Shown here: in pieces, positions 25,929 through 45,554 of the stretch
Layout: the number at the start of each line of letters is the position of its first letter
How positions within the stretch are numbered: position 1 is the first letter of the stretch
Assembly: GCA_947479915.1 (NCBI GenBank)
Contig: CANKAU010000003.1
Location: 1 to 64,000 of the forward strand
Length of the DNA stretch: 64,000 nucleotides
DNA from: Chloroflexota bacterium
Lineage (GTDB): Bacteria > Chloroflexota > Dehalococcoidia > UBA2979
Direction: 5' to 3'
Translations under genes and position numbers: made by a program
Notes under the pieces: generated by a model
What the model was told of the DNA's origin: nothing
Database searches by the model: none
Seen by the model: only the letters and a program-made list of their open reading frames with translations

Positions 25929-25932
<4 letters not shown>
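24856..25932 (-). CDS. ABC-2 type transporter permease
   Basis: The 358-residue permease has one N-terminal helix (QAVFWALAFPILFLGVFRLF), a large extracytoplasmic domain and five C-terminal helices. This is the YhgE/ABC-2 topology of exporters for drugs, lipids or polymers. The block GSLSRYREEGVLRRIRATPLP is characteristic of ABC-2 coupling helices. The ATG at 25932 overlaps the ATPase stop (ATGA), so the two subunits are coupled. The substrate cannot be inferred, and no regulator or export partner is adjacent. Confidence 0.85.
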
Positions 25933-26885
<953 letters not shown>

Positions 26886-26892
26886 CGTCTCG

Positions 26893-27690
26893 CTAGCCTT
26901 GGACTTCGAGGACGCGGAAGGTCATCGGACCGGAGGGGGCGTTCACCGTCACCTCGTCGCCAACGCCGTGGTTGATCACCGCGACGCCGATGGGCGAGGC
27001 GACGGACACCTTGCCGTTGGCGGGATCCACCTCGGTCGGGCTGACCAGGGTGATGACCTGCTCCTTGTTCGCCTTGAGGTTGAGGAGCTTCACGACCGAA
27101 CCAACGTTCGCACGCCCGCCCTTCGAGTCCTCGTCGATGATGACCGCGTTGCGGAGGCGGTTCTCCAGGTCGCGGATGCGGGCCTCCAGGTGCGCCTGCT
27201 CGTCGCGGGCGGCGTCCAGCGGAGCGTTCTCGCGGAAGTCCTTGTCCTGCATCGCGTCGTGGAGCTTCTGGGCGATCTCCGGGCGACGGGACTTCTCTTC
27301 CTCGATCTGCTTCTCCAGCCGCTTCAGGCCGTCGAAGGTCACGTGGTAGGCGTTGCCACCCAGCTCCTGCCCGGCGTTCCGGCCGCGGGCGCCACCGGCG
27401 TTCGGCCCGAGGTGCAGCGCGGGGACGAGGTTCTCCTCCGTGAACGTGAGGCGCGAGGCGTAGGCGAGGAAGGAGCGCAGCGGCTCCAGGTGCTCCGGGC
27501 TGGAGTCCAGGTGTTCCTTCACGTAGCGGGCAACGTCCGAGGCGCGGACCTCGCTCATCTGCCGGTCGTTGCCGACGAACGCGATGAACCTGGCGACCAC
27601 GGGCACCTCGACGCGCGCCTTCTCGGGCTCGAGCGCGAGCGAGTTCTCGAAGTGGTCCAGCGCCTCGATCGCAGTGATGCGCTCCGCCAT
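26893..27690 (-). CDS. Gre-type transcript cleavage factor with extra N-terminal integrase-SAM-like domain
   Basis: Residues 113-265 form a GreA/GreB-type protein. The antiparallel coiled coil has the acidic tip DKDFRENAPLDAARDEQ, keeping both catalytic positions (Asp151, Glu154), and the FKBP-like C-terminal domain ends in SPIGVAVINHGVGDEV. Residues 28-95 form an extra helical domain whose pattern resembles the SAM-like core-binding domain of tyrosine recombinases (FIAFVGNDRQMSEVRASDV, LEPLRSFLAYASR). A Gly/Arg-rich linker joins the two. No recombinase catalytic domain is present. The start at 27690 has GGAGG upstream. It should bind the RNA polymerase secondary channel and reactivate backtracked complexes, with the extra domain perhaps binding DNA. 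Confidence 0.75.
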   Translation of the reverse strand: MAERITAIEALDHFENSLALEPEKARVEVPVVARFIAFVGNDRQMSEVRASDVARYVKEHLDSSPEHLEPLRSFLAYASRLTFTEENLVPALHLGPNAGGARGRNAGQELGGNAYHVTFDGLKRLEKQIEEEKSRRPEIAQKLHDAMQDKDFRENAPLDAARDEQAHLEARIRDLENRLRNAVIIDEDSKGGRANVGSVVKLLNLKANKEQVITLVSPTEVDPANGKVSVASPIGVAVINHGVGDEVTVNAPSGPMTFRVLEVQG

Positions 27691-27810
27691 GGGCGGCCTC
27701 CGCAGTGTCGTCCGGTGATGTTTCGTTGTTGAGGGGTAGAAGACGGGCGCCCCTCGCACCGCCGAGCGGTGCCTTGGATCGCCGGGGGCCGCTGCCACCG
27801 CGTTTCCAGC

Positions 27811-27841
27811 AGTCTAGAAGATGTGGGACGCTACGTGTCAA
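27811..27841 (-). promoter_or_regulatory. Promoter for the Gre fusion gene
   Basis: On the minus strand a perfect TTGACA (27841-27836) is followed after 19 bases by TAGACT (27816-27811), or after 18 by CTAGAC. It abuts the rsmG start, so the two divergent genes share this gap. Confidence 0.5.
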
Positions 27842-27842
27842 C

Positions 27843-28616
27843 GTGACAGACCAATCCGCCGTTCCCCCGCTCTCCGCCGATCCCGGCGCGCTCCCCGTCC
27901 TTCGCGCCGAGGCGGCCCGCTTGGACCTCGCGCTGCCCGAGGTGGCGATCGAGCGGTTCCAGCGCTACCTCGAGCTGCTGGACGAGTGGAACGACCGCGC
28001 CGGGCTGACTGCGATCACGGACGCCGAGACGGCGCAGCGACGTCACTTCGGTGAATCTCTCGCGCTGCTGGTAGCCCTGCGGCGCGCCGGCCTGCTCCGC
28101 GAGGGCGAGGCCGCCCGCGTCGCCGACCTCGGCCCCGGCGGCGGCTTCCCCGGCGTGCCAATGGCGATCGCCGACCCCGCGATGACGCTCGTACTGATCG
28201 AGTCGCAGGAGCGGCGCTGCGCGTTCCTCCGTGCGGTGGCCGAGGACCTCGGGCTGACCGGCGTCTCCGTCGTCCACGCCCGCGCCGAGGAGGCCGGGCG
28301 CGCCACAGCGCTCCGCGCGTCGTTCGACCTCGTCGTCGCACGCGCGCTCGCGGCAATGCCGGTGCTCGTGGAGTACGCGCTGCCGCTGCTGCGCGACGAC
28401 GGCGTGCTGGCGACGCCCAAGGGCAGCCGCGGCGACGACGAACTGACCGAGGCCGCCCATGCCATCGAGGCGCTCGGCGGGGTCGCCCTCGAACCGCTCG
28501 CGCTGCCGCTCCCCGACGACGTGCCGCCTCAGCGCGTGTACCTGGTACGGCGCAGCGGGCCGCTGGATGACCGCTACCCCCGCCGACCGGGGATGCCGCT
28601 GAAGCGCCCGCTCTAG
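27843..28616 (+). CDS. rsmG: 16S rRNA (guanine-N7) methyltransferase RsmG
   Basis: RsmG methylates N7 of G527 in 16S rRNA using S-adenosylmethionine. The 257-residue protein has the N-terminal helical segment RFQRYLELLDEWNDRAGLTAI, the SAM loop VADLGPGGGFPGVPMAI, the acidic end LIESQERRCAFLRAV, and VVARALAAMPVLVEYALPLL with TPKGSR. All match the GidB/RsmG family. The GTG at 27843 is the only reasonable start close to the conserved region. It is divergent from the Gre fusion gene. Confidence 0.93.
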   Translation: MTDQSAVPPLSADPGALPVLRAEAARLDLALPEVAIERFQRYLELLDEWNDRAGLTAITDAETAQRRHFGESLALLVALRRAGLLREGEAARVADLGPGGGFPGVPMAIADPAMTLVLIESQERRCAFLRAVAEDLGLTGVSVVHARAEEAGRATALRASFDLVVARALAAMPVLVEYALPLLRDDGVLATPKGSRGDDELTEAAHAIEALGGVALEPLALPLPDDVPPQRVYLVRRSGPLDDRYPRRPGMPLKRPL

Positions 28617-45080: not shown

Positions 45081-45554
45081 ATGGCAGAAGAGCCTGTACT
45101 CCTGACTCGCGCTGGCTTGCAGCGCCTGGAGGCGGAGCTTCATGAGCTCAAGACGGTGCGCCGTGCCGAGGTCGCCGCAGCGATCCGCGAAGCGCAGGAG
45201 CTGGGCCCGGACCAGCTGGACGCCCAGTACGAAGACGCCAAGAACCAGCAGGCTTTCCTCGAAGGCCGCATCGGCGAGATCGAGCGGCAGCTCGAGAACG
45301 TCTCGATCATCGACGAGAACGCGGCTTCGAAGTCGAAGCAGGTACAGGTCGGCTCGACCGTGACGGTGAAGAACGCCGCGGGGAAGAGCCAGAAGTACCA
45401 GGTGGTCGGCCCGGCCGAGGCGGACCCGACGCAGGGCCGCATCAGCCACAAGTCTCCCGTCGGCCGGGCGCTGCTCGGCAAGAAGAAGGGCGACACGGTG
45501 ATGATCAAGGCTCCCGCCGGCGACGTGGAGCTCACGGTCACGACCATCGCGTAG
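45081..45554 (+). CDS. greA: Transcription elongation factor GreA with altered coiled-coil tip
   Basis: The 157-residue protein has the full GreA layout: an N-terminal coiled coil (LLTRAGLQRLEAELHELKTV...YEDAKNQQAFLEGRIGEIER) and a C-terminal FKBP-like domain (SIIDENAASKSKQVQVGSTV, ISHKSPVGRALLGKKKGD). GreA enters the polymerase secondary channel and stimulates RNA cleavage using acidic tip residues, DLxENAEY in E. coli. Here the tip is GPDQLDAQY: the positions of Asp41 and Glu44 are Pro and Leu. Cleavage stimulation may therefore be weak or lost, giving a Gfh1-like or chaperone role. The ATG at 45081 was chosen over ATG 45066 because GAGGA lies upstream. Confidence 0.85.
   Translation: MAEEPVLLTRAGLQRLEAELHELKTVRRAEVAAAIREAQELGPDQLDAQYEDAKNQQAFLEGRIGEIERQLENVSIIDENAASKSKQVQVGSTVTVKNAAGKSQKYQVVGPAEADPTQGRISHKSPVGRALLGKKKGDTVMIKAPAGDVELTVTTIA

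Follow-up and report, generated by a model that had tools for sequence, protein, structure and literature searches.

A tyrosine-recombinase core-binding domain fused to a complete GreA-type factor in Dehalococcoidia and other Chloroflexota

Gre factors are usually regarded as small proteins of two domains, and greA is counted among the conserved housekeeping genes. Known Gre structures place the N-terminus outside the polymerase, where the coiled coil has its base. For E. coli GreA (1GRJ; PF03449 plus PF01272), residues D41 and E44 have been reported as required for transcript cleavage (PMC7527559). Non-cleaving Gre paralogues such as Gfh1 of Thermus and Rv3788 of M. tuberculosis combine the Gre fold with an altered tip and occur beside an intact Gre factor. 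A Gre domain may also form part of a larger multidomain protein, as in the conflict proteins (eLife 2021, PMC8195603) encoded by sporadic defence-type genes, in which the Gre C-terminal domain only is joined to TPR and PIN domains. The protein analyzed here resembles the latter in having its Gre domain inside a larger polypeptide, but contains a whole Gre factor and is vertically kept. We found no description of a fusion of Gre with a recombinase domain in the open-access full texts that we searched.

The window, that is, the whole stretch of 64,000 nucleotides that was analyzed, carries the fusion gene (P0002, here termed CB-Gre) on the minus strand at positions 26893-27690. The gene encodes 265 amino acids plus a stop; its ATG is at 27690, with a GGAGG Shine-Dalgarno motif read from the sequence 6 nt ahead of it (27697-27701, minus strand). 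The product consists of a core-binding (CB, integrase SAM-like) domain (residues ~7-93; 27412-27672), a flexible linker (residues 94-112; 27355-27411) delimited by the AlphaFold model, and a complete GreA-type factor (residues 113-265). The latter comprises the N-terminal coiled coil (residues 113-184; 27139-27354), delimited by Pfam, the model and the alignment with 1grj, and the C-terminal FKBP-like domain (residues 192-264; 26899-27117), recognized by Pfam and by fold match. Both Gre domains score far above their Pfam cut-offs (GreA_GreB_N at 117-184, E 6e-19, 68.4 bits versus 24.5; GreA_GreB at 192-264, E 6e-22, 77.9 bits versus 26.9), and the best NCBIfam match, PRK00226.1-4, reaches 143.3 bits, just below its cut-off of 145. 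The coiled-coil tip DKDFREN (residues 149-155; 27226-27246) aligns without gaps with that of 1grj, such that D151 and E154 correspond to E. coli D41 and E44, and a fold search with the modeled Gre half returned 1grj and RNAP-bound Gfh1 at a target TM of ~0.79. The protein thus belongs to the Gre factors by both of its domains and by the catalytic Asp/Glu pair at the tip, as a preliminary description of this DNA had proposed for a full Gre factor with Asp and Glu in DFRENAP. Relative to GreA, it has an additional ~110 N-terminal residues of CB domain plus linker, a tip of the type D(F)RENAPL instead of DLKENAEY, and a locus that is not linked to lysS. In AlphaFold models built with 50-61 homologues, the CB domain forms confident helices at residues 7-17, 22-39, 50-60 and 65-80 (mean pLDDT 79.5). 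Linker residues 99-111 fall below a pLDDT of 50 in the full-length model, whose pTM of 0.52 leaves the rigid arrangement of CB versus Gre only loosely defined.

By ancestry, the N-terminal domain is the CB domain of a tyrosine recombinase, since four lines of evidence concur. HHalign of 61 N-domains against CB domains taken from 29 integrases of related genomes gave a probability of 95.7% and a score of 51.9 over 94 columns, with a top score of 17.2 in the controls (eight shuffles, two reversals). A profile of the N-domain only, run against 301 Chloroflexota genomes, returned the fusions as strong matches and, in addition, true tyrosine recombinases at E values of ~5e-10 to 1e-6 per genome, among them ORFs with clear recombinase motifs and without Gre (L195, L197, L203-L207, L209, L210, L213). 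In Foldseek searches of the PDB with the predicted helical domain, 17 of the 19 best matches were phage or transposon integrases, including lambda Int, Tn1549 Int and phage integrase N-domains, with TM values mostly of ~0.5-0.58 and weak individual E-values (0.3-3). Finally, the two top PDB sequence matches to the N-domain profile were integrase N-domains (E 0.007 and 0.05), and Phage_int_SAM_4 and SAM_1 were among the Pfam families that it matched most often, below threshold. The family profile was required here: single-sequence Pfam and PDB searches of the N-domain were uninformative, with zero Pfam matches for residues 1-112. A chance likeness to SAM-like domains was ruled out by the shuffled and reversed controls together with the retrieval of genuine recombinases. 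The preliminary description had recognized a recombinase SAM-like domain at residues 28-95; the assignment was borne out, also at the level of predicted structure, and only the limits had to be shifted. The domain shares fold and sequence ancestry with the CB domains of tyrosine recombinases and phage integrases (PF13495, PF02899; lambda Int, 1z1b; XerD, 1a0p), but no recombinase catalytic domain (R...HxxR...Y) follows it. We do not class P0002 as a recombinase, because the remainder of the protein is Gre and it gave no Phage_integrase match in Pfam. E. coli GreA and XerD sequences served as seeds in our scripts, the GreA tip being verified against 1grj.

The fusion is widespread. Among 393 genomes of the class Dehalococcoidia, many of them incomplete MAGs, 374 had a Gre match at E <1e-20 and about 330, by our own count of the table, the full-length fusion, taken as E below ~1e-55. 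Of 37 further class genomes that were sampled, 35 had it as well, and so did ~30 genomes from elsewhere in the Chloroflexota (loci such as L188, L190-L194 and L198-L202). A misjoined ORF or single-genome artefact is excluded, because ORFs of the same architecture occur across most of the 393 class genomes. The named relatives of P0002 are Dehalococcoidia/Chloroflexi MAGs, and in a contig scan with Dehalococcoidia tip patterns the best 80 of 416 matches all apparently came from Chloroflexota MAGs. A few fairly complete class genomes, among them G245, G357, G382 and G213, gave no Gre match at all, reflecting either real absence or MAG gaps.

In a Gre-domain tree computed with the tip columns removed, all sampled fusions and the CB-less proteins with the D/E pair fell into one clade (63 rows, SH-aLRT 85); the deeper forks were weakly supported. 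The CB-less rows L019/L020 and the copies L097/L098 were nested within the clade of the family to which P0002 belongs. One clade with nested CB-less rows fits a single fusion event followed by CB losses, which, as far as the sequences tell, is the likely history. CB-less relatives were found in g5 (L019/L020), G013 (L047) and G363 (L253). No CB-like reading frame adjoined these homologues, and the idea that the CB domain is separately re-encoded next to them was dropped. We likewise dropped the idea that the fusion came from a phage or plasmid: tblastn of the phage and plasmid collections gave zero matches over 80% of the query, those listed being to the Gre part, and IMG/VR yielded no relative. 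The losses would also be expected if the CB domain were a passive, functionless leftover of gene fusion that is merely tolerated, and the CB part does evolve faster than the Gre part. Nevertheless, we regard this explanation as improbable, considering that the domain has been retained in nearly the whole class and in other Chloroflexota since an old origin, that its dN/dS of 0.07-0.30 (Gre part, 0.06-0.16) indicates purifying selection, and that it has a predicted folded core with invariant residues.

The window contains a second Gre gene, an ordinary greA paralogue of 157 amino acids (45081-45554, plus strand) directly upstream of lysS. Its tip, GPDQLDAQY compared with GDLKENAEY in GreA, aligns gaplessly with 1grj and has lost the catalytic pair, P-D-Q-L (45207-45218) having P in place of D41 and L in place of E44. 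This is a pattern of the class: every one of the 110 distinct fused Gre domains in the sample had the catalytic D and E, and the pair was missing from 70 of 74 distinct unfused ones, where GN, SN, PL or GD were found most often. The remaining four unfused proteins are CB-less fusion orthologues, whose tips read DFRENAPL/DVRENAPL in three cases and DFSENAPL in one. Linkage to lysS was seen for the unfused gene at 22 of 30 loci of the class and for the fused gene at none. Fusion-free Chloroflexota also have a lysS-linked unfused gene, its tip usually canonical, and in fusion genomes outside the class the unfused copy mostly has E44 changed to D or an otherwise altered tip. In our own phylum-wide tally, which leaves out the oddly aligned unfused tips L295, L296, L300 and L302, a canonical unfused Gre occurred in ~1 of 23 fusion genomes versus 11 of 13 fusion-free ones (Fisher 1e-6, a value inflated by kinship, as the genomes are not phylogenetically independent). 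At least one fusion genome from outside the class, G228 (8% contamination, very long branch), additionally encodes a Gre with a canonical tip (L317). In the complete single-contig genomes G035, G058, G068, G077, G086 and G141, putatively Dehalococcoides/Dehalogenimonas, the fusion is the single Gre-domain match; G111 of the same putative group has two. No DksA/TraR zinc-finger match was found in the genome of P0002.

Because the pair is kept in the fusion and lost in the paralogue, and because the fusion is the sole Gre factor in six genomes, CB-Gre is most likely the working transcript-cleavage factor, and the loss of the pair from the ordinary greA suggests that the fusion replaces GreA. The greA paralogue is predicted to be inactive in cleavage, with the caveat that Asp and Glu are present at shifted positions of paralogue tips and that other lineages retain D41 with E44 changed to D. 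It would then be comparable to Gfh1 and Rv3788, but its tip, with P and L at the pair, is unlike that of Gfh1, which reads SSDDYDDSG. Two further arrangements were seen in the survey. G028, which gave no fusion match, carries a tandem pair of unfused Gre genes in which D41 is retained and E44 replaced by D (L060, on C8), plus a third Gre gene on a different contig (L061). In the fusion-free Chloroflexota G048 and G061, the sole Gre factors (L272, L283) have the tip GEL(S/G)EGNE, with Glu at both positions.

Taking these observations together, we consider it probable that P0002 is the working cleavage factor of this organism and that its captured CB domain tunes docking, the lysS-linked greA being non-cleaving. 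The Gre half would act as GreA does: its globular domain would dock on the RNA polymerase beta' rim and the coiled coil would enter the secondary channel, where D151 and E154 would activate cleavage of backtracked RNA. The CB domain would have come from a tyrosine recombinase, most likely through a single capture at an early stage of Chloroflexota evolution. As the N-terminus of Gre factors is at the coiled-coil base outside the polymerase, the CB domain, tethered there by the flexible linker, would stay outside the channel at its mouth, where it could touch the polymerase, downstream DNA or a further protein. Its most likely effect is to make Gre dock more firmly on the elongation complex or to adjust this docking. 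Where the CB domain is basic, the contact would be with nucleic acid in the vicinity; in the family of P0002, where the domain is now acidic, it would probably be with a protein. In parallel, the lysS-linked greA would have lost its catalytic pair, leaving a secondary-channel factor that cannot stimulate cleavage.

The charge of the CB domain bears most directly on its role. The mean net charge of the CB core is -8.3 in the family of P0002 (-6 in P0002 itself), compared with +2.4 in other Dehalococcoidia fusions, +1.2 in fusions of other lineages and +2.6 in recombinase CB domains. Residue 72 is K/R in 61 of 61 homologues, with K/R in 93% at residue 80 and in 90% at residue 43, the latter (R43, 90%) belonging to a fusion-specific W-x-G-x-x-R motif in which G40 is invariant. 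On one reading, the CB domain would genuinely bind DNA, perhaps in a structure- or site-selective manner, and recruit Gre to particular DNA: recombinase CB domains bind DNA, fusions outside the family of P0002 are mildly basic like them, a K/R in helix D is invariant, and those same fusions have an R/K-rich tail (HLRVRK). Yet the domain is acidic in P0002 and its family, where the tail has been lost too, the helix-B stretch S-x-N-T-x3-Y common in recombinases is, by eye, not retained in the fusions, the domain is missing from several relatives, and it is not evident why a cleavage factor of general function, being the only Gre, should need sites. We therefore hold such recruitment to be rather unlikely, and the suggestion of the preliminary description that the fusion lets Gre act at chosen DNA sites was not supported, given the acidic charge and the repeated loss of the domain. 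Somewhat easier to entertain, though still tentative, is the reading that the CB domain has lost DNA binding in every lineage and serves for protein-protein contact, its partner being RNA polymerase, a regulator or another factor of elongation or repair. The conserved fusion-specific motif, the acidic surface in the family of P0002 and the flexible linker would be in line with this; however, in most lineages the charge and the basic residues of helix D are like those of DNA-binding CB domains. The charge pattern together with the conserved K/R residues favors docking or tuning with lineage-dependent partners over site-specific targeting.

GreA of D. mccartyi CBDB1 (cbdbA743) has been reported to be acetylated on K17 (PMC7918482). 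In the Dehalococcoides-type fusions L325-L327, a Lys falls on residue 17 only when numbering starts from an internal Met ahead of the Gre domain. One might conclude that a short Gre form is also made from an internal start, so that the CB domain would be relevant to a fraction of the protein only, but in most homologues this position is Leu or Val, not Met, which makes a short form quite doubtful and an annotation choice the more likely cause. Since the K17 numbering fits the internal start only, cbdbA743 has probably been annotated from there, leaving the CB domain out of the gene's annotation.

Immediately downstream of CB-Gre, an ABC ATPase gene (25929-26885) on the same strand starts after 7 nt, and upstream rsmG (27705-28616) runs in the opposite, divergent direction. 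The adjacent ABC genes had been held to give no functional link, and none is evident; the arrangement is not random, however, as rsmG lies beside the fusion at 32 of 32 loci of the family and an ABC ATPase gene near it at 27 of 32, so that the neighborhood looks like a family-level operon.

For the bacteria concerned, a large set of soil, water and ocean organisms, the job of cleavage would have passed to a protein fused with a domain of mobile-element origin, and the gene that automatic annotation would name greA no longer has the residues required for it. This bears on how transcription is read in Dehalococcoidia, with their organohalide respirers and SAR202-type marine lineages. On a more speculative and on balance unlikely view, the only transcript-cleavage activity of the class would reside in a factor whose recombinase-derived domain reads nucleic acid beyond the polymerase, with the classical GreA serving as a non-cleaving antagonist; if true, RNA cleavage would be linked to DNA state, for instance to downstream DNA or to replication or recombination intermediates. 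The fusion also provides a natural experiment on the effects that an additional domain can have at the secondary-channel mouth.
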